DNA of 64,000 bases from Thermoflexus sp. (GTDB taxonomy: Bacteria; Chloroflexota; Anaerolineae; Aggregatilineales; Aggregatilineaceae). Position 1 is the stretch's first letter. Every line of letters begins with the position of its first letter. This document shows positions 26,755 through 45,059 of this stretch, piece by piece. The position numbers were made by a program, and so were the translations under genes. The stretch is from positions 248,001 to 312,000 of the forward strand of contig DYGX01000001.1 in the NCBI GenBank assembly GCA_020724465.1, written 5' to 3'. The notes under the pieces were generated by a model. That model made no database searches. It was not told the DNA's origin and saw only the letters and a list, made by a program, of their open reading frames with translations.

Positions 26755-28455
26755 TTATTCGAGCATTGAGGCCACGGCGAAGTATGCCGGGCGCGGGTTA
26801 CCGGCGGGGTCAAGCAGGCTGAAGAGACACTGCTCGCCCGTCTGGCCGACGACGGTGCAGAAGTTCAGGTTATACAGGAACATCGGACCCACATAACCCA
26901 GCTCGCGGCCCAGCTCGAAGCCGCGCACGATGTACTGCGCCTGCTCGTCCAGGCTGGTGAACTCGACGAAGCCGAGTGCTTCCGGTGGCGTGACGTTCAG
27001 GCCGTCGTTGGACCCCCAGCCGAACTCAGTCGCCCAGATGTACGTGCCGCTGTCGAGCTTCTCGACCATAATCGCCCGGTAATCGCTCAGCGTGTCCTTA
27101 AAGAAGAAGCTGGGATGATCATCCCAGGCTGCCACCGCCGGGCGGTTGTTGCGGCAGCAGGTGCTGTCCGGCGGGTTGGCCCAGCCGTTCGGGTGCGCGC
27201 CGATGGCGTCCGACCACTGCGCGATCCCGGCGTCATACATCTGGCGCAGGTAAACGCGGTCGTCGATGGCATTCACGCCGTCGTTGAATCCGGTTGGCGC
27301 CAGCCCCCCCGTCACCACGACGGCTGCCGGATCCGCCAGTTTGATCGCGGTGAATGCGCCCTTGAGCAGCTCCGCGTAGTCGGCAGCGCTGATGCCGCGC
27401 GGCGTGTTCCACGCGCGCCGCAGATTCGGCGAGTCCCACACCTCGTAAGCGTCCACCACCCCGGCATACCGCCCCGCCAACGCGCCGATAAAGGTAGCGT
27501 ATGTTTGCGGGTTGGCGGGCGGGCCGCTTTCCTCGGTCGTCTCGCGCGCCCAGTCTGGCGCGCCGGTGACCGTCAACAGGATGTTCATGCCCGCGGCGTC
27601 CATCGCCTCGATCATCTCGTCGAGCGGTTCCCAATCGATGGCCCCCTGGACAGGCTCGTAGACGGCCCAGTCAATCACCTGCTTGACCCACGTCACGCCC
27701 AGCCCGGTCACATCCTCCATGACCGCTTCCAGGTCCTGGTTCGGCAGGTGAATCTGGACACCCGGCGCCCAGCTCACGTTCCGCGCCTGGTTGGGCACGG
27801 CGCCCGCCGTCGGGAAGGCTTCGACTTCCACCTCGGCGCCAACCGTCGGCGTCGGCATCACTTCCGCCGGCAGGGCTGTGGGATAGATCATCTCTTCGGG
27901 CGGCGGACCGGCCGTCGGGAAGACGGTTTCGGGGAGCACAGGCGGTGGGGTCGGCGTCAGCTGGCCGACCGGGATGCGCAGTTCCTGCCCCACGTAGATC
28001 AGGCGCGTGTCCACAATCCCGTTGTACTGCGCTAACTGAGCCGTGGTCAGGCCGTAGCGCAACGCGATCCGGAACAGATTCTCGCCCGGCTGGACGACAT
28101 GAATGATCTCCGTCACCGGGCCAGGCAGCGCGGTGGGATACTGCGCCGCGCCGGGCAGCGGGGTGCCTGCCACCGGGGGTGTGGGCGTCATCTGCGACAC
28201 CTGAGCGCCGCCCGCGAGCGGGATGGTCAGCACCTGGCCAACAAAGATCTGGTTCGGGTTGTAGATCTGGTTGAGCTGTGCCAGGGCCTCTGCCGTAATA
28301 TTGTACTGGCTCGCGATACTGAAGAGCGTTTCGCCCGCCTGCACCGTATGCGTCGTTAGCTGAGCGCCATCCTGAGCGCGAACGATCGCCTGCGCGCCCA
28401 GCAGCACCCCCAGCGCGAGGACCAGCGTCACAAATCGTCGCACATGATGCATCAT
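26755..28455 (-). CDS. LysM-glycosidase-like protein with altered active site
   Basis: The 566-residue protein has a signal peptide (1-27), two LysM domains (about 35-80 and 117-163), a Pro/Thr/Glu linker (165-220) and a TIM-barrel glycosidase-like domain (225-566, GH39/GH5-like clan A). The nucleophile seems present as Glu477 in WATEFGW. The acid/base site, which is usually Asn-Glu-Pro, reads VWDSPNLRRAW (Asp341-Ser342), so it has lost the key Glu. It is likely a cell-wall-bound protein that binds glycan, or an enzyme with other chemistry. ATG 28455 (or the next ATG at 28452) follows AGGAGG closely. An upstream start at 28494 has no such site. Confidence 0.8.
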   Translation of the reverse strand: MMHHVRRFVTLVLALGVLLGAQAIVRAQDGAQLTTHTVQAGETLFSIASQYNITAEALAQLNQIYNPNQIFVGQVLTIPLAGGAQVSQMTPTPPVAGTPLPGAAQYPTALPGPVTEIIHVVQPGENLFRIALRYGLTTAQLAQYNGIVDTRLIYVGQELRIPVGQLTPTPPPVLPETVFPTAGPPPEEMIYPTALPAEVMPTPTVGAEVEVEAFPTAGAVPNQARNVSWAPGVQIHLPNQDLEAVMEDVTGLGVTWVKQVIDWAVYEPVQGAIDWEPLDEMIEAMDAAGMNILLTVTGAPDWARETTEESGPPANPQTYATFIGALAGRYAGVVDAYEVWDSPNLRRAWNTPRGISAADYAELLKGAFTAIKLADPAAVVVTGGLAPTGFNDGVNAIDDRVYLRQMYDAGIAQWSDAIGAHPNGWANPPDSTCCRNNRPAVAAWDDHPSFFFKDTLSDYRAIMVEKLDSGTYIWATEFGWGSNDGLNVTPPEALGFVEFTSLDEQAQYIVRGFELGRELGYVGPMFLYNLNFCTVVGQTGEQCLFSLLDPAGNPRPAYFAVASMLE

Positions 28456-28683
28456 CTTGCCTCCTGTGGGTAAGACACCGTGCCTGGTAATCATAAATCA
28501 CTTCACTTGCCGCCGCCATTCGCCCCGTGTCGCAGCGGACCGTACCATGACTCAAGTCTAGTCTCGTTGCCTACAGCATACGCGAACGGCGGATAATCTG
28601 CAACCGGCCCGCCCCCGTCTGGTGTACAATCTGTTGCGTCTGTTTTTGCGCGGGCCACATCGACGCACCAGGAGGGACTCCCG

Positions 28684-30879: not shown

Positions 30880-30948
30880 CCGCCGGTGGGCGGCTGATCC
30901 GTTTTTCGCTATACTCAGCAGCGCGCCGGCACGCTGCGGGCGCGCGTG

Positions 30949-32901
30949 ATGGGAGCGAACGGGGCAGGCTCACCTGTGGCACGTAAACGGCTCGGCAAGT
31001 ACGAGATCATCGACCGTCTTGGTCGCGGCGGCATGGCCGAGGTTTACCGGGGCTATCACCCCGCCCTCGACCGCTACGTCGCGATCAAGGTGCTGCACCC
31101 GTTTCTGTCGGACGATCCTGAGTTCAAGGATCGCTTCGAAAACGAGGCGCGCAACGTCGCCAAGCTCAAGCACCCGAACATCGTCCAGGTCTACGATTTT
31201 GAGTACGATGTCGAGAGCGAGAGCTATTACATGGTGATGGAGCTGATTAACGGCCCGACGCTCAAAGACCGCCTGATCGAGCTGGCCCGCAGCGGCGCGA
31301 CGTTTCCGGTCGGCGAGGCAGTACGGATCGTGCACAGCGCCGCCGAAGCCCTGGCCTACGCGCACCAGCGCAACATGATCCACCGCGACGTCAAACCCGC
31401 CAACCTGATGCTCGACGAGGGCAACCGCGTCGTGCTGACGGACTTCGGCATCGCCAAGATCGTCACCGGGGCGCAGTTCACATCCAGCGGCGGCATGGTT
31501 GGCACGCCCGCTTATATGGCGCCTGAGCAGGGGTTAGGCGAGCCCGGTGACGAGCGCTCGGACCTCTACTCGCTGGGCGTGATCCTGTTCCAGTTTCTGA
31601 CCGGGCGGCTGCCGTTCGACGCCGAAACCCCGCTGGCAATTGTACTCAAGCACGTCAATGAGCCAGTTCCGTCGGTGCGCCGGCTTGCACCACACGTCCC
31701 CGAAGAGCTTGAGCGTATTGTCTACAAGGCGCTTGCCAAAGACCCGGACGAGCGCTATCAGTCCGCGGCGGAGATGGCCGAAGACCTGGCTATGCTCGAC
31801 GAGGAAGGGCGCCCGTATCCGTTCTACGAGGGTGCCGCGTCGCTCAACGCGGACACGCCTCTGCCGCCGACTCACACCCGCACGCATACCTCCACCGAAT
31901 GGCGCCGGCTGCGCACGCTGATCACCGAAGGAGCTGAGGCAGCAGCCGATCTGCCGCGTCCTGGCGGCGCGCCGGGGCGGCTCCGCCCGCGCACGGTGCT
32001 TGTGCTGGCGGCGGCCCTGGTAGTCATCGCGGGCACAGCGCTGTTCGGCTTCAACGACGGCAGCAGCCGCGTGTCCGGCCTGCTAGGGCTGACCGACAAC
32101 GGCCCCGCTGGATCGCAGCAAACTGCGACCGTCCGGGCTGCGCTGGCGCTCACCCCCAGCCCGACTCAGGACCCCGCCGGGCTGCCCGCGCAGGTTCTGG
32201 CAGGAAACGCATCGCCAACGCCGCGCGCGTGGACGCCGACCCCCGCCCGCTCGCCGCTGCCCAGCCGCACGCCGACTCCGCAGCCGACCGCTACCCCCAC
32301 CCCGACCGAGACGCCGTCGCCAACCCTCACGCCGACACCCTCGCCGGACGCCACCGGCACCGCCGTCGCGCTCCTGGTCGAGAACTACTTCGCAACCCAG
32401 GCTGCCGCCTCGCCCACCCCCAATATGACGCAGACATTGGCCGCCTGCGACTTCGAATACTACGTCGTCGCGCCGGAAGACTATAACCAGCCGCCCGCCC
32501 GCACCGCCTTCAGCGATCCGCGTCTGGTGCGCGCCGGTGAAAACTTCACCTTCGAGCTGACGCTGCTCAACACCGGAAGCTGCGCCTGGCCCGCGCGCGC
32601 CCGGCTGACCTTCAACCCCACCCTGACCGCCCGCCCGGATGAGACCGTGGATCTCAGCCGCTACCGGAGCGTCTGCGGCAACGAAGAGCAGCGCCCCGGC
32701 ACCAACTTCGCCCGCCAGCAGCGTTCTAATTTCTTCTTCGAGCCGGCCGTCGACATCGAGGAATCCGCCACAATCACGTTCACCGGGACTGCTCCCCCGC
32801 TCTACGGCTGCTACTTCAGCGTGTGGGACTTGATCTATCCCGGCAGCGACGTGCCGATCGGACGCCCGCTGGTCCTGGCGATCCGCGCCTGGGGCAGCTA
32901 G
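30949..32901 (+). CDS. Membrane Ser/Thr protein kinase with NBR1-like Ig ectodomain
   Basis: The 650-residue protein has a Hanks-type kinase domain (residues 18-285): glycine loop GRGGMAEV, Lys47 in VAIK, His145-Arg-Asp147 in HRDVKPAN, Asp165 in DFG and APEQ. It is complete and should be active. A juxtamembrane segment leads to one membrane helix (349-368), a Pro/Thr linker (405-480) and a C-terminal extracytoplasmic beta domain (500-650) with LLNTGSCAWP, like the Ig-like domain of NBR1. The start may be GTG 30946, ATG 30949, or GTG 30976, which has the better ribosome-binding site (GGGGCAGG). A TATACT box is at 30910. This is a one-component receptor that could sense the envelope. Confidence 0.9.
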   Translation: MGANGAGSPVARKRLGKYEIIDRLGRGGMAEVYRGYHPALDRYVAIKVLHPFLSDDPEFKDRFENEARNVAKLKHPNIVQVYDFEYDVESESYYMVMELINGPTLKDRLIELARSGATFPVGEAVRIVHSAAEALAYAHQRNMIHRDVKPANLMLDEGNRVVLTDFGIAKIVTGAQFTSSGGMVGTPAYMAPEQGLGEPGDERSDLYSLGVILFQFLTGRLPFDAETPLAIVLKHVNEPVPSVRRLAPHVPEELERIVYKALAKDPDERYQSAAEMAEDLAMLDEEGRPYPFYEGAASLNADTPLPPTHTRTHTSTEWRRLRTLITEGAEAAADLPRPGGAPGRLRPRTVLVLAAALVVIAGTALFGFNDGSSRVSGLLGLTDNGPAGSQQTATVRAALALTPSPTQDPAGLPAQVLAGNASPTPRAWTPTPARSPLPSRTPTPQPTATPTPTETPSPTLTPTPSPDATGTAVALLVENYFATQAAASPTPNMTQTLAACDFEYYVVAPEDYNQPPARTAFSDPRLVRAGENFTFELTLLNTGSCAWPARARLTFNPTLTARPDETVDLSRYRSVCGNEEQRPGTNFARQQRSNFFFEPAVDIEESATITFTGTAPPLYGCYFSVWDLIYPGSDVPIGRPLVLAIRAWGS

Positions 32902-32988: not shown

Positions 32989-35900
32989 TCAGGTGCCGGC
33001 AGGGACTGCCTGCACAACCAGCCGCTGGGCGAACATCCCATAGGCGTTGTTCCAGTCGGTGCATGTCACCAGCGTGAGCACCGGCCCCTCGGTGGGGGCA
33101 GTCACCGTCCAGTCGTCCGGCTGCACCTTGCGTGTGCTCGTGACCACAAAGCGCCGCTCCAGATCGCCCTCGCGGATGATGATCTCGTCGCCGGGGACCA
33201 GCGTGTCCAGGCTCCAGAAGGGGCCGGGCGTCCGCGCGTCAAGCTGGACGTGCGCCGCCAGGACGGTGTTGCCCCAGTCACGCTCAAGCCAGGTTGTCCC
33301 TTCCAGCCAGCCGATGAAGTAGCCCAGGCCGCTGACGTCCCACTGCCGGTTAACGATCGGGACTTCCAGGATCGGGATCGGCGCGCGGAACGTTTCGCCC
33401 AGCTTCGGGATGTACAGCGTCCGCACCCCGGCCGGCGTCGGCAGGATGTACGGCGTCGGGATGGGCGATTCGACACCGGGCACCACGGCGTAGTCCGCGC
33501 CGGGCGTAGCAGGCACGGCGGTCTCTTCCGGTCCGGTCTGGTCATCGTCGCTCGTCAGAACCAGCGCCACAGCCCCGCCGATCGCACCCAGTGCAAGCAG
33601 CACGAACACCACCGCGAGCAACGTGCGCCGTCGCGACACGTGCGCGCTCAGCGCCAGCAGCAGCAAGCCGCCCAGTCCGATCCCGTCCAGCGCGCCGAGG
33701 CGCCAGCCGGCTGCGCCCGATGGGCCGCGCAGACCCGTCGCGGGCAGGCTGCCCACCCCCGGACCGACGCTGACGTTCCCCACGGCGCAGATCTGCGGGC
33801 CGCCCTGGCGCGCCGCACAGGCCGTGTTGGTCACGGTGGCGGGCGCGGAGACGGTCGGTGCCAGGTTCGTGTTGAGTGTGATCGTCGCCGTCTCGCCAGG
33901 GTTGAGCGTGCCAACGTCTACGATTACCTGCGTGCCCTCGACCCGAGCCTGGCCGCGATCGGTTGCCGCGCTGGCAATCACCATCGACGCCGGCACGGTA
34001 TCGGTGACCACCACGCCGGACATCACGCCGGTGCTGCCATTGCGGACCCGGATCGTCCATGTCACCGGGCCGCCGGCCTGTGCGTTGGGTGCGGACGGTT
34101 CTTTCGTGACCTGCGGCTCCGTGGCGGTCGGGTCAAGCGTCGCCGGATCGACCGTCGGCGTGGGTGTCCCGACGCCGAACGGAGTGAGTAACAGCTCGGC
34201 TGCCGCCGTCACCTGCTGCGCCAGGCCCATCCCGTTGATCGTCGCCCGGAACAGGTACGGTCCGGTCTGATCTTCCTGCTTCGAGAGAATCGCGGTCGCC
34301 GCACCGCCCACCGGAACCGTCTGCGGCGCGAAGTTCAGCACGCCGCCGGTTCCCTGCGCGCCGGGCCGCGCCCCGCCGCTCATCAACGGCAGGCTGCCCA
34401 GCGAGTGAGTCGTCGCCAGCGGTATGATCTGATACCCACCGCTTTGGATGGTGACGGGGATCGGGCCGGTGTTGCGCGCCGTGACCGTATAGGTGACGGG
34501 CTGGCCGAAGATCGGCGGGTTCGGCACCACCTGGATCTCCAGCGTCAGGCGCGGAACCATATAGACGATGGACGCGTCGGACGTGTCCCACGCCGTGTAG
34601 GTCCCCTGGACGGCGTTGTCGAGCGCGGGGTCGTAATACCCACCCCGAACGGTCACGCCGTACAGGGCAAACACCTGATTCGGCTGGGCGGGCTGAGGCA
34701 TCGGGAGCGAGACATCCACCGTCCGGACGCCATCCGGATTGAGGACGATGTCGCGCAGGGATGCTGTGAACTCCTGCAGCGCCGCGCCGAGATCGAGGTT
34801 GACCGACGAGAGCGTGAGATGGCACGAGTCGCCCGCGGGCGCTTCGGGGCCGCAGCCGATCGGCGTCGCGCCCTCGTTGACGACCATGACGGTAAAGCTG
34901 ACCATCTCGCCCGGCATGGCCTGAGTCGGCTCCGCGGACAGGACCACGCGCAGCGCGAGGTCAACCATCATGACGACGCGGCTATCGCCAAAGCCGGCGA
35001 TCTCCTCGCCGCCAAGCCGGCCGCTGACGAGGAACCGGATCGTGTCATCGACCATTCCGCCACGCGGATACAGATGATGGCCCACGGGCGGCGTGTAGAC
35101 GCAGTGCCGCGTCGCGCTTTGGCCCGCCCCCAGTGACGAGATGGGCGGCTCGCTCGTCCAGCAAATGCCCCCGGGGTCGAGATCGTTGATAAAGTCGGGC
35201 AGAACGTCGGTGATGGTTTCCTGGCCGTCGTTCGTCACCCGGATCGTGATCGTGATCGGGTGCCCGGTCTGGAAGGGGCGCAACTCGGAGCCGTCATACC
35301 GCACGCCGTCGCGTTCCTGGACCATCTCTTCGATCGTGATCCGCAGCGCATCCAGGGGCACGCCGGGGATGATGCGGGCCGAAGTCTCGCCCTCGACATC
35401 GAAGCCGCCCGGCGACACGCCGGAAGCAACCGCGTAGAGCGTGTACGGGTCCTCGTGCGTCTCGTCGACTGTGACGGCCCCATAGGCTTTGGCGCCAGGC
35501 TCCAGATCGAGTCGATCCAGGCCAATGTCGGTCCAGGTCTTGGGTTCGGCCTCATCGGTCGAGAACCTGGCGGTCAGGCCCGAGAGAGGAACGTTGCTGG
35601 TATTGGTGATCTCGATCCGGTAGGTGACCGTCGGGTTTTCCTCGGTTCCGCCCGGATCCGCGCCGACGATGCGAACTTCAAGCGACAGCTCCTCAACCAC
35701 CAGATCGGCGGACGCATCAACTGAGGTGATGTACGCGTCAAGTAGCGCCTGGTCAAGTTCTTCGTCGTGGTACCCGCCGCTGGCTGTGACGGTAAACGTC
35801 TTGCTGACGTCGCCGGGCAGGATCTGGTACGCCATCGTGACGGGATTGGTCAACGAATCGCCCGGTTGCAGCTCCTGGCCCCTCAGCTCATCGCGCCAGC

Positions 35901-38900
35901 CGTCGAGCAGCGGCTGCAGTTCGGGATCGTCCGAGGTCACCGTCAGCGTGCACGGCAACGGATCGCCGTCGCCCGGATCGCAGCCAATCGGTGACGCGCC
36001 GGCATTCGTCAGGTTGAGTTCGAACGTCACCCACTCCCCGGATGGCGCGGACGGCGGATCGAGCGTCAACGTCGCTTCCAGCTTCAGATCGACGAGGGTC
36101 ATCGGCTGAGAAACGGACACATCGAACGGGACACCACCCGCGTTGCCCGTGGCGCGGATCTCAACCAGCCGGTTCAGACCGCTGCCATAGTACTCCCGCC
36201 CAACCGGGAGCGTGAAAGTGCAGACGATCGTGCTCTCTCCGCCCACCGCCAGCGCAGACGGCACCGGACCGCCGGCTTCTGTGGTGCAAACCGGCGCAGC
36301 CGCCTCTGGGACGTCCAGCAGCACGTTCAGGTTGAGTCCCGCGATGGTAGCCGACGACACGTTGCGCAGCTTGAAGCGGAGCGTCGCCGGCTCGCCGGTC
36401 TGGATGAGCGTGAGCGACCGCCCGCGGTCCATCTGCGTGATCGACACATCTTCGATTGCCAGCGTGCGCGGCACGACCGTGACCCGCGCCGAGGCTTCGT
36501 CTACCCACTGGCCGTTGAGCAGCAGTTGGGCGGTGTTCTCGAAGACTGTGTCGGTGTAGTCCGGTGGGATCTGAAGTTTGCCGCTGGCGGTTGCGCCGTC
36601 CGGCCCGATGTCGTCGGGTAGCGGCACGATGAACGTCAGGCCTTCGTCGTCCAGAACCACACCTTGCAGGGTCGCCTGGGTAAAGCTCTCAACCGTAAAG
36701 GTGTAGGTGACTTCATCCCCCGTGTAGAAAGCATCCTGCGGCTCCGCCGTCTTGGTCAGCCCCAGCAGTTGGACGTCCACCGAGGCGCTGGCTGTGTCCT
36801 GAAGCGTCTGCTCGGCCTCGCTCCCGGTGTGCACCATCGCCACGTTGACGAAGGTCGTATCGGCGTAATCGGCGGGGATCGGCACAGTCCGCGCGAAGGT
36901 GTACGCCTCGCCCGGCCCCAGCGGCGGAACCTGGATCGGGGCGCCGCCTACCTGCGAGTCGATCACGGTGATATCCTGAGCCGTCTGTGCCGCACTGACA
37001 TTACGTACCGTGAAGGTATAGGTCGCCTCGTCGCCGGGGCGCGCCCGCAGGCGAGCCGTCCTGACGCTGGCCTGCTTGGTCAGTGCCAGGATTGCGTCCG
37101 GGTTTTCGAGGATCGCCACTGCTACAGACGCGCTGTCCTGGTAGGTGTTCTGCGTGTCTACGCCGACGGCGGTCACCGAAACGGTGTTGGCGACCGAGTC
37201 CGGTGCCGGGTCCGTGCCGACCAGGTACGAGCCGCTCATCGTGAAGCGCGCGCCCGGCAACAGCGACGCCGGTGGCGGCGGGTTGAGCAAAACGATCGGG
37301 TCGAAGACCTGGATCTCCGCCAGCGTCTCGCCGCCGATATTGGTCAGGGTGATCGTGTAGTTGATGACGTCGCCCGGCGCGGCCACAAAGCGGTCCGCCG
37401 TCTTGGTTACGACCAGCCCGCCCGAGGTCACCTGCACCTGAGCGGTTGCCGTGTCGCTCACCGGGACGGCGCCTGCAATACCCGTCGCACGGACGGTCGA
37501 GACCAGCGGGCCGGGCAGCGCCGCGGTGACCGTGCAGTAGACGGTCACGCTGCTGCGCGGAGCCAGCGTGGTCGACGGAAGCTGCGCGCCCAGATCGCTG
37601 CACAGGCCGCCGTCGTCAAAGGACAGGCTCTCGATCGGCTCGCTGCCCAGGTTGCGGGCGGTGTAGGCGAACGTCACCGGGTCGCCATCGATCACGTACT
37701 GCCGGTTCGGGACGTTGCTGACCGCCAGCGCCGCGTCCGAAAGGGCGACCGTCGCGCTCGCCTGCGCGCGAACCGTCACGCCGCCGCGCCGCCCCTGGAC
37801 CGTCACGGTGTTGGTGTACGGGTCGGGGTCGAGCGGCGTCAGCGTACGGGTTGCCGTGCGGATCACCGTCTGGCCCGATGCGAGGCGGGTCGGCCATGGC
37901 GCGTTGAACGTGATCTGGGGGTCGCTGTCCACCACCGACAGATTGTCGATGGCGCCCTGGCCCGTGTTCCGCACCACATAGGTGAACGTGACCGTCTGGC
38001 CGAAGGTGGCTACCGTGACGCTCGGCGTCTTGGTCACCGACAACCCCGGCGTGACGATCTCCAGCGTGTGCGTCGCCGTGTCGGTGACCGTGCCGCCCGG
38101 CGCGCTGGCCTGCGAGCCGCGCGCGAACGCCTGGTTGACCAGTGGCGAGGGATCCGCCAGCGATACCGTGTAGTCGAACGTGCAGCTTGCGTCTGTCGCA
38201 CCCGGCGCCAGGCTCGCGATGGTACACACCGGCGCCGTGCCGCTCGGGCTGAGCGGATCGGTGATCTGGATGTTGGTGATCGGCTCGCCGGCCGGGTTCA
38301 GATGCGTGACCGCCAGCGAATACGTGACGGTTTCGCCCACCTGAGCCTGGGCGGGGCCGCTCTTGGTCAGTTGCAGGTCGCCGGTGACCAGCCGCAGCGA
38401 GGCGCGCGCGACGTCTTGCGCGGTCTGCGGCGGCGTGGTCGGCGTCTCGCCGGTCACGGTCACCATGTTCCACAGCGGGTCGAGGTCCTCGTCGGCCACG
38501 CTGTACGCGTACTTGAACCAGACCTCGTCCGGGCCGCCCGGTGCGCCGTCGTTGGGCGCCAGCGCGCGCGGTGACTGCGGCCATGCAATCGTGTCGAAGG
38601 TCGAGGACGGCACCAGCGAGTCCGACACAGTGATGTTCTGGATCGGGACAATGCTGGGGTTGTAGATGCGCAGGTAGTAGAACACCTCGTCCGGATTCTC
38701 GTCGGCGACGTTGACCACCGGCGTGCAGGGATCGGGCGGCGTGTTGCCCTCGGGGTTGTCCTGCGCGCAGACGTACTTCTCGACGCGCAGCTCCGCAAGC
38801 TGGATGTCAACCGTCGTCTGGGCGCTGTTGATCACCACCGCGCCCGCCGACGTGAAGGCGCTGACCGAGGCGCGGTTGGTGTACGGGTCGCTGTCGGTGG

Positions 38901-41900
38901 GTGTGACGCGATGCACGTAGACGTGCTCGTACACCTCGCCGGGGTCGAGTGTGGCCGCGTCGCCGTCCGTGTCCGGGAAGCCGCCGGTTACCGTCAGCGT
39001 CCCGCCCGGCATCGCGGCGTCGGCGATCGTCAGCCGCGTGAAGGGCACCGTGCCGGTATTCTCCACGCGGATCGTATAGGTTACGTCTTCGCCGATGGTC
39101 GCCGTCGAGGTCGAGGCCACCTTCTCGACGCGGATGCCTTCCTGCCGCACGTCGATCGTCGCCGAGCTGCGGTCCTGGACGGTAGTATCGCCCAGCGAAG
39201 CCTGGATCGCCGCCACGTTGGTGAACTCGGAACCGGCCCCGGCGGGCGGCACATCGACCGTGATCGTGCCGATCAGCATCTCGCGATGCCGTAGACCGTG
39301 CGCCGGGTCATAGGGCTGGCCATCGAGCGGGTTGGGCGCCCCGTCGCCCGCATACGGCTCCGGCCCGTAGACAAACGGGCAGGGGCCCTCCGGGCAGACG
39401 CTGTCCAGGTCCAGCATCACCCCCGCGGTAACGTCGGTGAAGATCAAATCGGTGAGCGTGTCGCCCGCCCCGCCGGTGTTGCGAATCGTGATCGTGTAAT
39501 CGACCCCGCTGCCGGGCGTCGCCGCCTCGACCTGCGGCACCTTGGAGATGCTCACGTTCGGCTGGATGATGTCCACCGTAGCGGTCGACTGCCCCACGAC
39601 CGGGTCCGGCTGCGGGATCCCCCGCTCGTCGTAGATCGTGCCCTCAACCGTCACGGTATTGATGTACGGGTCAAGCTCGGGATTCGCCGCCAGGTCTTCA
39701 ACCCTCGGCATGTCCAGGTCGTAATAGACATACGCCGTCCTGTTCGGCATCAGGTCGGTGGCGGTCGGGGCTGGCAGGTCGGTTTTGCGCGTGTCGGTCA
39801 CGTGCAGGTCATAGACCGGCACCTGCCCCACGTTGGTGATCGCGATTGTGTAGTGGACACTCGCGCCCGGCAGCGCACGGCTCGCGCTGGCAAACTTGCG
39901 CACCAGAAGCTGGCTCGGCGTGATCGCCAGCGACGACTGTGTTGAGTCCTCAACCTCAGTCCCCTGTCCGTCGGCCAGCACGCCCGTTACCGAGGCGGAG
40001 TTGATCAGCGGGTCCGGGTCGTGCGGCTGGATCGTGTAGGGGTAGACCAGCGTGGCGTACCCGCCGGGGCCAAGCGAGCCGGGTATCCCACCGTTGGCGT
40101 TGGCAGACCAGTCCACCATGGCCGGATCGACCACACCCAGGAACGAGTCCAGCAGCTCGATGTTGTCGATCAGGTAGGTCTGGTTGCGGTTCTCGATGCG
40201 AACCGTGTAGGTCACTTCCTGGCCGATGTACGCGAGCGGCTGCGATGCCGATTTGGTGATCAGCAGATCCGTGCCGAGCAGGTCGATGGTCAGGCTGTCG
40301 TCGGTGTAGACCGGGATCATTGCGCCGCCCGACGGCGTTTCACCCCGCAGTGTGACCTTGTTGGTCAGCGGGTCGCCCAGGGCGCGGTTCAGCGTGATGG
40401 CGACAGGATAGCAGAAGTCCACCGACTCCCCGCCATACAGCCGCCGGCTCCCGGCGCCCTGGCGCTGGTACGCGATCTCAACCGCGGCCTCAAACCACAT
40501 CTGCAGCGCGCCCTCGCCGAGCATCACGTCCTCGACCCGGATGTTGTCCACATAGGACTGCGACGAGGGGCTGTTGTTGCTCACCGTGAAGCAGTATTCG
40601 ACCTGCTGCCCGACCGTTCCCTCGACGATCCCGTCGCCGCCCGGCGTGGATAGCGGCAGATCGTCCGGCAGCGGCTCCTTGGTCCCGGCGTCGCGCACCC
40701 GCTTCTCGATCACGATGTCCGGCGGCTTGATGTTAACCGCGATGCTCACGACTTCCGTCAGCGTGCGAGGGCCGCCGGGCAGATCGATCGTGTAGGTCGC
40801 CGTCGCCGTGTTCACCAGCGGGTTGGGCGCGTCGATCGGGATGTCGTACGGTACACTGGAGATAGTGAAGGACTCGAACCCGCCTAGCGTCAGCTTGGCT
40901 CCCGGCAGGTCAGTGTACGGGCCGGGGATCAGTTGGTCGATCCGGTCGTCGCTCAGGGTGAGGTCGCGGATCGTGTATTCGGTCGCGTTGGTCAGCTCGT
41001 AGCTATAGTAGATCGTCGTGCCAGGGATCCCCTCCCATTGGCTGGGCGTCTTGACAAGCTGCAGCGGCTTGACGGTCGTCACTTCGGCCTTGCCGGTGGT
41101 GTAGAAGGTCACATCGGGGGCGCCCGGATCGGGGAACTGCGCCGTCGCCGTGTTGACCAGCTTGTCGGGGTCGCTGTCCTTAACCACATACGTCAGCGCC
41201 GGGCCGGTCACCACCTCGCCCGGCCCCATCTCACCTGACGTCACAGCCGGCTGGCCTTCCCCGTTGTAGAACATCGGGATCGGGTTGGCCGACAGCAGCG
41301 GGTCGTTGAGCGTTACCGTATAGGTGTTGATCGGGTCTTCGGGACCGGCCAGGTTGATCAGGGTCAGCGTGTATGTGACGGTATCGCCCGTGAGTGCCAG
41401 CGAGGGGTCGGCCGTTTTGATCACACCGATCGGGCTGAACAGCGGAGCCTGCCCCTGCCCGGAACAGGCGTTGCTGCCGGCCACCTCGCTGAAGGTCACC
41501 TCCACGTCGCTCGTCATGTAGTCCTGGTCTTCAGTCGAAGGGCTGTAGTAATCCTGCGTGATGGGCCTCTCGAAGGCAGGAAGCGACACCTGCTCGTTAG
41601 GCCCGATCGTGCTGGGGAGGCCGGGAACCGGGCCGCCCCAGTTCAGCGACTCGGTGACTACCACGTTCTGCAGCGTCGACTGGGTGATGTTAACCAGCGT
41701 GATCTGCCAGCGCAGCGTCTCGTGCAGGATGTGTACGTAGGGATCGAGTGGGTCGCTGGGATTAGTCACGGTCTCCGTCACGTCGAACCGGATCAGCACC
41801 GGGCATGATACGTCCATCTCATGCTGCCCGATCCCCGCGACAGCCTGGCTCGCGTCGTTCTTGCCGACCACGGTAAATGTGTTAACCAGCGGCGAGACAT

Positions 41901-44900
41901 CGGCCTTCACCTGTGGCAGCGTGAGCGTCGCCGTAGCCTGCTGCCCCGGCCCCAACACGCCCACCGGCCCCGGCCAGGCGAAGTCCTCTCGCCTCACCGG
42001 CACGCCATAGGCGGCCAGCACATCGTCGTGCAGCCCGTCCAGGTCGGCGGTGAACGTCTGGCTGTTCGAGTTGTTCTTGATCGTGATCTGATACTCAACG
42101 TCCTCGCCCGGCGTGGCGACATCCGGCCCTCTCTTGTCGACCGTGATCATCGGGATGAGCGTGAGCACGTGCGAGCCGGTCGCGATCACGCTGCCGTCAC
42201 CCTTGGTGGCCGTAGCGCGCAGCACAAGCTCGAACGTCGTCGCCCCTGGCGGTGCGTTGATCGTGTGGTCGAAGTTCCCGGTAAACGTGTTGCTGCCCGG
42301 CACGCCGCTCAGCGTCGCCACTGTCGCCACCGGATGGTCCGGATCGTCCGCCAGAAACACGCGCACGTCGGTCAGGTCCACGTTGGTGTCGTTGGTCAGC
42401 GTGAAGCTGAAGTTGTGCGTGTCGCCGTTGACTACTTCGGTTGGGCCGGTCACCTGCAGCAGGAAGTCCGGCGTCGTCACGACGATCGTCGTCGTGGTCT
42501 TGAGCGTGACATCGCGGCCCCGGTTGTCCGTCGCATAGAGCGTCACCTCAACCGGGAACTGCCCCACATCGGCATCCGCCTGGGTCATGACCTGCGTGAA
42601 GATGCCGGTCGCCGTCTCGAACTGGAGCAGCGCGCCACCTTGCAGATTGGTCGGCGTCCACGGGACATTGCAGTTCGGCGGTTCCGCCGGCAGGCGCGAC
42701 GGGTAGCAGACCGTCGCGCTGACGTTGCTCAGCGGGATGGTGCCGACGTTCGTCACTAGATAGGTGAACTGGATCGCCTCGCCGACCGTCGCCACGCCGT
42801 CCGGGCCGAGCGCAGCGCCGATCTCGGCGTTCACCTGCACGTCGGAGATATTCAATACACGGCTGGTCCGGTCGGAGAGCAACTCCCCGCCGCCCTCGCA
42901 GCTTGAGCTGGCCGTCACCTTGAAGACCATATGCAGCGGGTCTTTGTCGGTGCTGGTCACCAGATAGGTCGTCGAGGCGCTGGCCGCTTCGTTGCCCGTG
43001 CCGGTGCCTTCCAGGCGGCCCGGTGTGGCGCCCGGCCACAGCATCGGCACGGCGGGGATGATAGGCGTCTCCTGGCCCGTGTCCGGATCGACGCGCAACT
43101 GGCTGACCAGGACGTTGCAGATCGGGTTGGCGCTCTTATTGGTGACGACGATGTTGTAGACCACTTCGCCGCCGCGCAGCACGGTCGTCGCGGCCGGCTC
43201 GCTGACCGTCACCGCGATCTCGATGTTCGGGTTGGTGACATCAACCACCACCTGCTTCTGCACAGTGAGCTGCCGTCCCCCGACCATCCCCTTGACCGCC
43301 ACCGTGTTCACCAGCGGATCCGGGTCCTCGTCCAGGATCGTGTAATCCCAGGTCAACGTGCGAACGCCGCCGGGCGCCAACGTGATTCCGGACAGACTGG
43401 GCAGCGTGCCGTAGCTGCGCAGCGTCCCGCCGAGCGGCGAATAGTCCAGACTGGTGATCGGCTCGTCGCCCACGTTCGACAGCGTCATCCGGAAGCGGAC
43501 CGTGTCGCCGACATTGGCAGCCAGTCTGGGCTGCCCGGTGACCGGGTCCAGCGCGGCAAGCTCCATCTCCAGCGCGGAGTCCGCGATATCGACCGACACC
43601 GCCGCATCGGCGCTGACCGTGCGGCCGGTGTTGACCGCGCGCGCCGTAACCGACACGCGGTTGGTCAGCGGGTCCTGGCTGTTCGGCAGCACCGTCCATT
43701 GGGTGTTGAACGGCCTCGACTGACCCGCTTCCAGCACCAACGATGGCGACACGGCGATTAGCCCGGTCAGGCTGTCCTGAATTGTCAGGTGATCGACCGC
43801 GATCCCGCCCAGGCTCGTGTTTTCGACCGTGATCAGATAGTGAATCGTATCGCCCGGCTGGGCCGGCTCCGACACGATCTGCGTGCCGCGTATGATCTGC
43901 TGGACCGTCTTGGTGACTTTGATGCTCGCCTGGTGAATCTGAACCGGATCGCTCTCCACCTCGGCAGACGCCGGTTCGGCGCCGCCGGAGTGGGCGGTCA
44001 GCGTCCCGGTCAGGCGGAACTCACCGGTCTCGGTTGACGGGGGAATCACGACATTTCTGATCGTGCACTCCGCAATCTGCCCGGACTGCAATTCCGTAAT
44101 CGGGGAGCCGCCGACGGTCCATTTCTCGATGCCGCTACACTGGCTGACAAACTGCGAGAACTCAGATTCGACCGTGAGGTTGTCGATCACCACGCCGGGG
44201 CGCGTGTTCTGCACCCGGATCGTGAAATCGACCAGGTCGCCGGGGGCCGCCGTGCTCACGCTCGGTTCGAACGACATGAGCAGAAAGCCGGGCGAGCTGA
44301 CCGTCACCTTCCACGTCTTGTCTTCATCCTGGACCAGAGCGTCACTGGAATCCCTGGCGTCCACCGTGACCTCAATCCGGATCTCGCTGGGGGAAAACGC
44401 GCTGACCTCGTAGCGGTAGCGGCCCTCCCAATATGCACCCGGCGCGGGCATGGTGTGCGGAAGGGATATTTGATCCCAGCCCGGCTCGGGCAGCGGCGTC
44501 TGGCCCGCCACCGTCAGGTTGATACCCGTAACTGTGATTGCCTCATTGGTCGCACAACCCGGATCGTCTGTCCAGTTCATGACCACGACCCAGATTTTCA
44601 GCACATCGCCCGAGGCCGCTTCGGTGACCGGCACAGCCCCGAAGGGCGTGGGATTGGTCGTGCCGCTGGGTGGCTGGCTTCGGTCCGGCTCGCTGGGGTA
44701 GTCCTGCACCGCCGCCGCCAGCACCTTGATCTTGCACTCCTGAGGACGGTCCTGGCGAAGCGGGATCTCTGCGACCCCGATGGGGGTCAGCCCAGCCGCG
44801 ATCTGACCCTCCCCCCCTTCAGCGTCAGGCGCCGCGATCAGAGCCGCGCCCGACAACGGTTCAGCAGCCGGAGCGGCGAGCGCCAGCGCCGGGAGTTGTC

Positions 44901-44958
44901 CGATAAGCATCGAAAGGATAATGACAATCGCGCGAGCCAAGGGGATGATCTTGGACAT
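32989..44958 (-). CDS. Giant DUF11-repeat surface protein with LPATG signal and fused sortase
   Basis: The 3989-residue protein starts with a signal peptide (1-30) and has about 29 DUF11/CARDB-like beta-sandwich repeats (about 130-3720), each near 115-130 residues, with the recurring phrases GxxVTYTIxVxN and DPDPLVNTVTV. Then come LPATG (3738-3742), a membrane helix (about 3757-3775), SRRR, a second helix (about 3782-3804), an acidic/Pro linker and a sortase domain (about 3835-3989). The sortase has all three catalytic residues: His3903 (LAAHV), Cys3966 (TLVTCT) and Arg3979 (AQRLVVQ). The frame is open throughout. ATG 44958 was chosen because AGGAG lies ten bases before it and it gives the signal peptide at once. 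No other gene in the window has a sorting motif, so it may be its own substrate. Confidence 0.9.
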   Translation of the reverse strand: MSKIIPLARAIVIILSMLIGQLPALALAAPAAEPLSGAALIAAPDAEGGEGQIAAGLTPIGVAEIPLRQDRPQECKIKVLAAAVQDYPSEPDRSQPPSGTTNPTPFGAVPVTEAASGDVLKIWVVVMNWTDDPGCATNEAITVTGINLTVAGQTPLPEPGWDQISLPHTMPAPGAYWEGRYRYEVSAFSPSEIRIEVTVDARDSSDALVQDEDKTWKVTVSSPGFLLMSFEPSVSTAAPGDLVDFTIRVQNTRPGVVIDNLTVESEFSQFVSQCSGIEKWTVGGSPITELQSGQIAECTIRNVVIPPSTETGEFRLTGTLTAHSGGAEPASAEVESDPVQIHQASIKVTKTVQQIIRGTQIVSEPAQPGDTIHYLITVENTSLGGIAVDHLTIQDSLTGLIAVSPSLVLEAGQSRPFNTQWTVLPNSQDPLTNRVSVTARAVNTGRTVSADAAVSVDIADSALEMELAALDPVTGQPRLAANVGDTVRFRMTLSNVGDEPITSLDYSPLGGTLRSYGTLPSLSGITLAPGGVRTLTWDYTILDEDPDPLVNTVAVKGMVGGRQLTVQKQVVVDVTNPNIEIAVTVSEPAATTVLRGGEVVYNIVVTNKSANPICNVLVSQLRVDPDTGQETPIIPAVPMLWPGATPGRLEGTGTGNEAASASTTYLVTSTDKDPLHMVFKVTASSSCEGGGELLSDRTSRVLNISDVQVNAEIGAALGPDGVATVGEAIQFTYLVTNVGTIPLSNVSATVCYPSRLPAEPPNCNVPWTPTNLQGGALLQFETATGIFTQVMTQADADVGQFPVEVTLYATDNRGRDVTLKTTTTIVVTTPDFLLQVTGPTEVVNGDTHNFSFTLTNDTNVDLTDVRVFLADDPDHPVATVATLSGVPGSNTFTGNFDHTINAPPGATTFELVLRATATKGDGSVIATGSHVLTLIPMITVDKRGPDVATPGEDVEYQITIKNNSNSQTFTADLDGLHDDVLAAYGVPVRREDFAWPGPVGVLGPGQQATATLTLPQVKADVSPLVNTFTVVGKNDASQAVAGIGQHEMDVSCPVLIRFDVTETVTNPSDPLDPYVHILHETLRWQITLVNITQSTLQNVVVTESLNWGGPVPGLPSTIGPNEQVSLPAFERPITQDYYSPSTEDQDYMTSDVEVTFSEVAGSNACSGQGQAPLFSPIGVIKTADPSLALTGDTVTYTLTLINLAGPEDPINTYTVTLNDPLLSANPIPMFYNGEGQPAVTSGEMGPGEVVTGPALTYVVKDSDPDKLVNTATAQFPDPGAPDVTFYTTGKAEVTTVKPLQLVKTPSQWEGIPGTTIYYSYELTNATEYTIRDLTLSDDRIDQLIPGPYTDLPGAKLTLGGFESFTISSVPYDIPIDAPNPLVNTATATYTIDLPGGPRTLTEVVSIAVNIKPPDIVIEKRVRDAGTKEPLPDDLPLSTPGGDGIVEGTVGQQVEYCFTVSNNSPSSQSYVDNIRVEDVMLGEGALQMWFEAAVEIAYQRQGAGSRRLYGGESVDFCYPVAITLNRALGDPLTNKVTLRGETPSGGAMIPVYTDDSLTIDLLGTDLLITKSASQPLAYIGQEVTYTVRIENRNQTYLIDNIELLDSFLGVVDPAMVDWSANANGGIPGSLGPGGYATLVYPYTIQPHDPDPLINSASVTGVLADGQGTEVEDSTQSSLAITPSQLLVRKFASASRALPGASVHYTIAITNVGQVPVYDLHVTDTRKTDLPAPTATDLMPNRTAYVYYDLDMPRVEDLAANPELDPYINTVTVEGTIYDERGIPQPDPVVGQSTATVDIIQPNVSISKVPQVEAATPGSGVDYTITIRNTGGAGDTLTDLIFTDVTAGVMLDLDSVCPEGPCPFVYGPEPYAGDGAPNPLDGQPYDPAHGLRHREMLIGTITVDVPPAGAGSEFTNVAAIQASLGDTTVQDRSSATIDVRQEGIRVEKVASTSTATIGEDVTYTIRVENTGTVPFTRLTIADAAMPGGTLTVTGGFPDTDGDAATLDPGEVYEHVYVHRVTPTDSDPYTNRASVSAFTSAGAVVINSAQTTVDIQLAELRVEKYVCAQDNPEGNTPPDPCTPVVNVADENPDEVFYYLRIYNPSIVPIQNITVSDSLVPSSTFDTIAWPQSPRALAPNDGAPGGPDEVWFKYAYSVADEDLDPLWNMVTVTGETPTTPPQTAQDVARASLRLVTGDLQLTKSGPAQAQVGETVTYSLAVTHLNPAGEPITNIQITDPLSPSGTAPVCTIASLAPGATDASCTFDYTVSLADPSPLVNQAFARGSQASAPGGTVTDTATHTLEIVTPGLSVTKTPSVTVATFGQTVTFTYVVRNTGQGAIDNLSVVDSDPQITFNAPWPTRLASGQTVIRTATRTLTPLDPDPYTNTVTVQGRRGGVTVRAQASATVALSDAALAVSNVPNRQYVIDGDPVTFAYTARNLGSEPIESLSFDDGGLCSDLGAQLPSTTLAPRSSVTVYCTVTAALPGPLVSTVRATGIAGAVPVSDTATAQVQVTSGGLVVTKTADRFVAAPGDVINYTITLTNIGGETLAEIQVFDPIVLLNPPPPASLLPGARFTMSGSYLVGTDPAPDSVANTVSVTAVGVDTQNTYQDSASVAVAILENPDAILALTKQASVRTARLRARPGDEATYTFTVRNVSAAQTAQDITVIDSQVGGAPIQVPPLGPGEAYTFARTVPIPADYADTTFVNVAMVHTGSEAEQTLQDTASASVDVQLLGLTKTAEPQDAFYTGDEVTYTFTVESFTQATLQGVVLDDEGLTFIVPLPDDIGPDGATASGKLQIPPDYTDTVFENTAQLLLNGQWVDEASARVTVVPRTLAIEDVSITQMDRGRSLTLIQTGEPATLRFKLRNVSSATIAGLNLNVLLDVPEAAAPVCTTEAGGPVPSALAVGGESTIVCTFTLPVGREYYGSGLNRLVEIRATGNAGGVPFDVSVSQPMTLVDLKLEATLTLDPPSAPSGEWVTFELNLTNAGASPIGCDPGDGDPLPCTLTVTSDDPELQPLLDGWRDELRGQELQPGDSLTNPVTMAYQILPGDVSKTFTVTASGGYHDEELDQALLDAYITSVDASADLVVEELSLEVRIVGADPGGTEENPTVTYRIEITNTSNVPLSGLTARFSTDEAEPKTWTDIGLDRLDLEPGAKAYGAVTVDETHEDPYTLYAVASGVSPGGFDVEGETSARIIPGVPLDALRITIEEMVQERDGVRYDGSELRPFQTGHPITITIRVTNDGQETITDVLPDFINDLDPGGICWTSEPPISSLGAGQSATRHCVYTPPVGHHLYPRGGMVDDTIRFLVSGRLGGEEIAGFGDSRVVMMVDLALRVVLSAEPTQAMPGEMVSFTVMVVNEGATPIGCGPEAPAGDSCHLTLSSVNLDLGAALQEFTASLRDIVLNPDGVRTVDVSLPMPQPAQPNQVFALYGVTVRGGYYDPALDNAVQGTYTAWDTSDASIVYMVPRLTLEIQVVPNPPIFGQPVTYTVTARNTGPIPVTIQSGGYQIIPLATTHSLGSLPLMSGGARPGAQGTGGVLNFAPQTVPVGGAATAILSKQEDQTGPYLFRATINGMGLAQQVTAAAELLLTPFGVGTPTPTVDPATLDPTATEPQVTKEPSAPNAQAGGPVTWTIRVRNGSTGVMSGVVVTDTVPASMVIASAATDRGQARVEGTQVIVDVGTLNPGETATITLNTNLAPTVSAPATVTNTACAARQGGPQICAVGNVSVGPGVGSLPATGLRGPSGAAGWRLGALDGIGLGGLLLLALSAHVSRRRTLLAVVFVLLALGAIGGAVALVLTSDDDQTGPEETAVPATPGADYAVVPGVESPIPTPYILPTPAGVRTLYIPKLGETFRAPIPILEVPIVNRQWDVSGLGYFIGWLEGTTWLERDWGNTVLAAHVQLDARTPGPFWSLDTLVPGDEIIIREGDLERRFVVTSTRKVQPDDWTVTAPTEGPVLTLVTCTDWNNAYGMFAQRLVVQAVPAGT
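33061..33300 (-). other. Sortase catalytic region within the giant gene
   Basis: The three catalytic codons are at 33250-33252 (His), 33061-33063 (Cys) and 33022-33024 (Arg), the last lying just outside the span given. The His-to-Cys spacing of 62 residues and the TLVTC motif are normal for sortases. Confidence 0.88.
33733..33747 (-). other. LPATG sorting motif
   Basis: Five codons (CTG CCC GCG ACG GGT on the minus strand) encode Leu-Pro-Ala-Thr-Gly. It is followed by a membrane helix and Arg residues, the standard cell-wall sorting signal. Confidence 0.85.
33750..44560 (-). repeat. Array of about 29 DUF11/CARDB-like repeats
   Basis: The repeats were counted by their start patterns (a K-T or L-x-V opening, then PGDxVxYTIxVxN). 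Units are diverged at the residue level and more so at the DNA level, so the array is old and not a recent tandem expansion. Units 23-28 drift towards a CARDB-like form. Confidence 0.8.
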
Positions 44959-45059
44959 AATGATGCGCTCCTGTGCATGGTCACCTGGCGAGCAGGCGTC
45001 CACGAGATGAAAACTGGCGCAGCACGCATGCTGCCAGAACAGGAAGAATCGATGCCAAT

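Follow-up and report, generated by a model that had tools for sequence, protein, structure and literature searches.

A giant repeat protein of Thermoflexus sp. that carries an LPXTG motif and a sortase domain on one chain, and its relatives in the Anaerolineae: a candidate self-sorting adhesin

LPXTG-type tags are the sites cut by the sortases that anchor proteins to the cell wall, and these enzymes are presumed to work in trans on many substrates. A gene in the 64,000-nucleotide stretch of Thermoflexus sp. DNA analyzed here (the window) raises the question whether substrate and enzyme may also be one and the same molecule. Its product, a giant protein of 3989 aa encoded on the minus strand (32989..44958, from an ATG at 44958; an alternative GTG start at 45003 would give 4004 aa), had been described in the first-pass annotation as joining a substrate motif and a sortase on a single chain, and the translated gene bears this out.

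All features of the giant protein given below are encoded on the minus strand. The chain begins with a predicted signal peptide (about residues 1–30, 44869..44958; from hydropathy, the cleavage site being approximate) and continues into 30 Ig-like repeats of the DUF7507/DUF11/CARDB type (residues 111–3715, 33814..44628), as counted with a profile derived from its own sequence; the earlier estimate had been about 29. Pfam assigns 386 bits to DUF7507 and 224 bits to DUF11, with further matches to CARDB and others, and places the last DUF11 repeat ahead of the motif at residues 3616–3714 (33817..34113). Lysine opens 15 of the 30 repeats, a count from sequence without geometry that touches on possible Lys–Asn isopeptide bonds. 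The LPATG motif (residues 3738–3742, 33733..33747) is the sole LPxTG in the whole 3989-aa chain and is followed by another 247 residues. These comprise a first membrane helix (residues 3751–3769, 33652..33708), a short Arg-rich loop with the sequence SRRR that is presumed to be cytoplasmic (33634..33651; AlphaFold2 and charge count), a second membrane helix (residues 3776–3802, 33553..33633), a tether that is first acidic and then Pro/Thr-rich and is modeled mostly at low confidence (33427..33552), and a sortase domain recognized by PF04203 and by its predicted fold (residues 3842–3989, 32992..33435). The domain contains the putative catalytic residues His3903 (33250..33252), Cys3966 (33061..33063), and Arg3979 (33022..33024). 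The positions first reported for motif and triad are exact in the translated gene, and hydropathy agrees with the signal peptide and the two helices around SRRR, both of which also appear in the AlphaFold2 model.

The motif had further been described as the only sorting motif in the window. Seven other LPxTG-containing frames were found among the 536 stop-to-stop frames of at least 60 aa, none of them followed by hydrophobicity of membrane-helix grade (2.66 for the giant protein, 1.54 for the next best frame in the window), and the description thus holds. The neighboring gene (30946..32901, plus strand) codes for a protein with a protein kinase domain and, at the end, an NBR1-type Ig-like domain, and one protein encoded at 26755..28494 (minus strand) has LysM domains and a profile match to glycoside hydrolase 42.

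By profile, catalytic triad, and predicted barrel, the C-terminal end of the giant protein is a member of the sortase family, for which transpeptidase activity is predicted. It scores 67 bits against the Pfam Sortase family PF04203 (cut-off 26.6), its nearest solved chains by sequence are class A and class C/E sortases (E 4e-6 and weaker), and its His, Cys, and Arg align with those of both solved sortases shown beside it. Structure prediction, which had been suggested as a check, yielded a model built on 18 aligned sequences (whole-model mean pLDDT 74.7) in which the eight-stranded sortase beta-barrel is present with block-mean pLDDT of 83–96 (Foldseek E 1.6e-10 and VIA Z 17.2 against solved sortases). 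The top structural neighbor is 2XWG, a pilus sortase of class C (Z 17.2, rmsd 2.7, 147 aligned), with which 3TBE and 3RBK tie within Z 1, and the class E sortase SrtE1 (5CUW) matches the model with Z 16.1, rmsd 2.1, and 131 aligned. None of the NCBIfam models for classes C, D, E, F, and GN reaches its cut-off for this sortase; the best of them is class E with 38.6 bits, class C obtains 29.1 bits (cut-off 160 for both), and the general sortase model TIGR01076 obtains 37.9 bits against a cut-off of 39.35 with the C-terminal 267 aa. Since the closest structure is that of a pilus sortase, one might envisage an intermolecular polymer, in which LPAT is joined to a lysine of another copy in the manner of class C pili. 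We regard this as improbable, because the class models stay far below their cut-offs and a single adhesin with many repeats does not resemble a pilin-type subunit.

The fusion had been assumed to be a one-off, which it is not: it recurs across the class Anaerolineae. A first search of 61 genomes, comprising the source genome and its relatives, gave matches in 57, many of them in open frames longer than 3,400 aa. Twenty of these loci were retrieved for reading, and 18 (L034–L051) contain LPxTG, two helices, and a sortase one after another in a single frame. Four helices and an LAGTG are present in L052, and the contig of L053 ends ahead of the sortase. In the class-wide search, which scored at most four candidates per genome, 177 of 396 Anaerolineae genomes matched, and the matches listed include at least 47 frames with a length of no less than 900 aa, spread over at least 32 genomes. 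A search with PF04203 across the Chloroflexota matched 284 of 400 genomes; at least four frames longer than 900 aa are among the matches listed, all of them in the class Anaerolineae. A contig scan of genomes with query patterns derived from the helix-containing form alone returned 36 loci, eight of them titled as belonging outside the Chloroflexota, where every sortase frame has 269 aa or less. An artificial fusion, created by a frameshift or an overlooked stop where an LPXTG gene meets a sortase gene, would be compatible with the existence of split neighbors (L147 and L156, see below). However, the same anatomy is found in open frames of many separately assembled genomes, and given the numbers of long open frames and of genomes in the class-wide search, some of the latter being single contigs (G086, G299, and G393), this explanation was rejected as having next to no probability.

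A total of 61 fused frames, including 46 of the 47 listed frames of 900 aa or more, was read individually. The His-Cys-Arg triad is complete in 60 of them, and the remaining one, L047, stops at a contig end. Twenty-three frames have one or more membrane helices behind the motif, which is LPxTG in 22 cases and LAGTG in one; where measured in this form, the tether between helix 2 and the sortase spans 45–116 residues. The other 38 frames have no membrane helix between motif and sortase nor after the sortase. This helix-free form is a second architecture, unforeseen in the first-pass annotation; its motif (LPxTG in 27 frames, [IVA]PxTG in 10, ILDTG in one) is followed by Phe in all 38 frames, and the distance from the end of the motif to the sortase match is just 22–30 residues. 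None of these frame numbers are independent counts, as several frames are near copies of each other (five are from one genus, L039–L043). Individual genomes can hold several fusions: among the matches listed, G387, G429, G146, and G414 of family f34 each have at least three or four fused frames that reach 900 aa, with at least four copies in G387. In two giant frames, L048 (5173 aa) and L049 (3602 aa), the sortase is not C-terminal but is succeeded by some 145 residues that belong to another domain.

The comparison supports the view that the motif ahead of the fused sortase is under real selection. Exact LPxTG occurs in 49 of the 61 frames, and the 12 deviating ones, about a fifth, have [IVA]PxTG (10), LAGTG (one), or ILDTG (one); the Thr-Gly pair is kept in all 61. 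Within 330 aa ahead of the sortase LPxTG was found in 38 of 41 frames, compared to a mean of 1.3 of 41 for shuffled regions, in a sample that favors motif-bearing frames because part of it was found with a query containing the LPxTG columns; the remainder of the same 41 frames contains three LPxTG in 119,394 residues. A second batch of 20 frames, which were matched mostly via the sortase columns, has the TGF motif in 20 of 20. In an alignment of 11 C-terminal ends (A1), L, P, T, and G of the motif are invariant and the surrounding columns vary freely.

For the helix-containing form, the second helix had been proposed to bring the chain back out, so that LPATG and sortase would lie on the same face of the membrane. 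According to the positive-inside rule, positively charged loops stay on the cytoplasmic side. Of the 21 frames measured, 20 have a net positive charge in the loop between the two helices, and 20 have a net negative charge over the 30 residues following helix 2 (L046 and L137 are the exceptions, and L044 was left out). By the rule, such a positive loop and the acidic stretch behind helix 2 would put LPxTG and sortase on a shared outer face, which lends support to the proposed arrangement.

AlphaFold models of the giant protein and of L091, which is 42% identical to it, offer a view of where the motif might reside relative to the enzyme. The LPxTG segment corresponds to model residues 16–20 and has a pLDDT below 50 in both. 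Among the best 50 structural rows, 14 for the giant protein and 16 for L091 start at model residues 9–18, nearly all of them with class C sortases, and in the alignments to 5CUW the first pair is model residue 18 with Ala168 in both models. Ala168–Ala170 of 5CUW are described as part of a linker that occupies the active site as a bound tripeptide (PMC5148588), and for SrtC1 and SrtC2 of GBS the lid is reported to overlay the LPAT substrate (PMC3493515). The LPxTG segment may thus occupy the place of the class C lids and of the SrtE1 active-site tripeptide, which we take as a hint only, as the pLDDT is below 50 and the placement was read from alignment end points, not from coordinates. The rows of lidless class A sortases are no fair control for this placement, because they stem mostly from runs that omit low-confidence stretches (“trim on”); the class A or F rows obtained with “trim off” (five for the giant protein, two for L091) start at residue 119 or later.

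This placement would also suit a protein that never cuts itself. Here, LPxTG would be an uncut lid or pseudo-substrate that gates the sortase, the hairpin would hold the giant protein in the membrane, and the enzyme would serve other proteins after opening of the lid. N-terminal lids do occur in class C sortases (PMC3493515), the motif is found at the lid position in both models, and the narrow spacing of 22–30 residues in the helix-free form would fit a structural element. We nevertheless consider this explanation unlikely, though worth serious attention: the lids described in the cited work carry an Asp-Pro-aromatic motif and no cleavable signal (PMC3493515), strict retention of Thr-Gly in all fused frames exceeds what binding alone would require, and the helix-containing form possesses a complete classical sorting signal consisting of motif, helix, and Arg.

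The giant protein unites an LPXTG surface adhesin and a sortase in one natural polypeptide, and from sequence and models we consider it reasonably probable that this sortase attacks the LPATG of its own or of a sister chain. In this self-sorting scheme the signal peptide would export the chain and leave the 30-repeat stalk outside, and helix 1, the Arg loop, and helix 2 would form a hairpin that places LPATG and sortase at the outer face. The sortase groove would then take up LPATG, either from the same chain or from a neighboring copy, Cys3966 would attack the Thr-Gly bond, and the stalk would be transferred to a nucleophilic amine, for which a peptidoglycan precursor is the likeliest candidate. 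Release of the stalk, leaving a two-helix sortase behind in the membrane, is the most likely consequence of the predicted cut, and the remaining enzyme could serve other substrates. In the helix-free form, cleavage would sever the sortase from its substrate, and the enzyme would be lost after a single turnover; attachment of this form to the wall is uncertain, since it has no evident means of keeping the enzyme at the membrane. An engineered fusion of SrtA, LPETG, and a target protein is reported to be cut to 20–40% during synthesis (PMC2901362), and by analogy cutting in cis or between copies of the giant protein appears chemically plausible.

The same genome also encodes components of ordinary sorting. 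Besides the fused enzyme it encodes two sortases, in frames of 223 aa and 377 aa, and at least two classical LPATG-helix-Arg tails (L183 and L184), one of which belongs to an ExeM/NucH-type extracellular nuclease (L184, contig C2, at about 249 kb). Twenty stretches were read for such tails, three selected by DUF11 genes and 17 by matches to the pattern CTGCCNNNNACNGG, which occurs 85 times in the genome compared to 53 times for the reversed control. The Pfam profile Gram_pos_anchor (PF00746) has no match over its cut-off in the genome, but it is a poor detector here, as even the tail of the giant protein is missed at E values up to 10. With these additional sortases and two classical LPATG proteins at hand, LPATG of the giant protein could be a normal signal for another sortase of the genome, and the fused sortase could have other clients. 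Such a division of labor seems quite unlikely to us, given that motif and enzyme stand side by side in the 38 helix-free frames and that some f34 genomes maintain several fused copies.

How could a self-sorting protein have come into being? The fusion plausibly arose by loss of the stop between an LPXTG gene and an adjoining sortase gene, because in split forms from some related lineages the helix-RR end of the former and the RR-helix start of the latter overlay exactly. In L147, the LPETG-helix-RKRK end belongs to a frame of 4088 aa or more, and the sortase frame opens 46 bases on; in L156, an LPDTG-helix-RRKHS end is followed by the sortase frame 9 bases downstream. A different arrangement is seen in L153 and L154, where a DUF11-like protein (stop-to-stop frames 2223–2924 and 2112–2849, respectively, minus strand) ends with LPETGRR and lacks a helix; its frame extends 24 and 12 bases, respectively, into the following sortase frame, and this sortase starts with SRRxFL, a twin-arginine-like stretch. 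In the sortase tree, for which just 136 columns were retained, the helix-free rows form one clade (19 rows, SH-aLRT 96). The state “fused” switches three times on the 74-row tree and four times on a 71-row tree from which three rows were dropped, namely L122_3473, a second domain that proved spurious, and L117 and L151, both of them long branches. A single clade of all fused rows (p-AU 0.135) and a single clade of the helix-containing form (p-AU 0.065) are both compatible with the data, and the fusion may have had one origin or several.

Compared to the classical pair of an LPXTG protein and a separate sortase A-type gene, with which it shares LPxTG, helix, arginines, triad, and barrel, the giant protein is one polypeptide whose signal is internal and whose second helix returns the chain to the sortase. 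Lid-bearing class C sortases, such as SrtC1 of A. oris (2XWG) and SrtC1 and SrtC2 of GBS (4G1J, 4G1H), give the highest structural scores (Z of up to 17.2 with the model of the giant protein and 18.0 with that of L091). These have a peptide of their own chain in the groove, as the low-confidence models hint for the giant protein; however, their lid is an Asp-Pro-aromatic peptide instead of a substrate and no giant adhesin is attached. SrtE1 of S. coelicolor (5CUW) has its own N-terminal linker peptide in the groove, which the giant protein may resemble, but it is encoded by a separate gene and belongs to an LAXTG signal. A substrate-fused sortase is reportedly a published reagent, and the engineered fusions (BISOP, SrtA-LPETG-target) do combine sortase and LPxTG on one chain that is cut at Thr-Gly; in contrast to the giant protein, they are laboratory constructs with the sortase on the N-terminal side and without a membrane hairpin. 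Engineered proteins are also the sole substrate-sortase fusions that we found in the openly licensed literature, which is weak evidence of absence. Sortase and LPXTG are each well known, and their natural union on one chain accordingly appears to be new.

With the fibrillar adhesins of the CLIPPER (DUF11) and CLIPPER_2 (DUF7507) type the giant protein has the repeat stalk, the signal peptide, and LPxTG in common. A 2025 survey of DUF11-type adhesins sought sortase motifs in the last 50 residues only, according to its description (PMC12617251), and with this restriction fused proteins would not count as anchored; more generally, surveys that look for LPXTG at the C-terminal end alone would miss anchored proteins of this kind. 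If the proposed self-sorting is true, anchoring would be one-to-one and possibly single-turnover, which would explain how these bacteria handle adhesins of 2,500–5,000 residues, and self-cleaving tags could be developed from such a natural fusion. More tentatively, and as a proposal to which we give slightly less than an even chance, these proteins may constitute a class of self-sorting adhesins that contain their anchoring enzyme and spend or free it in the process, with the helix-free sortase of one Anaerolineae family being a secreted, one-shot autocatalytic anchoring domain that acts in cis and is present in several copies per genome. The logic of such a sortase, connected to its motif by a link of 22–30 residues, would be comparable to that of an intein or another self-processing module.
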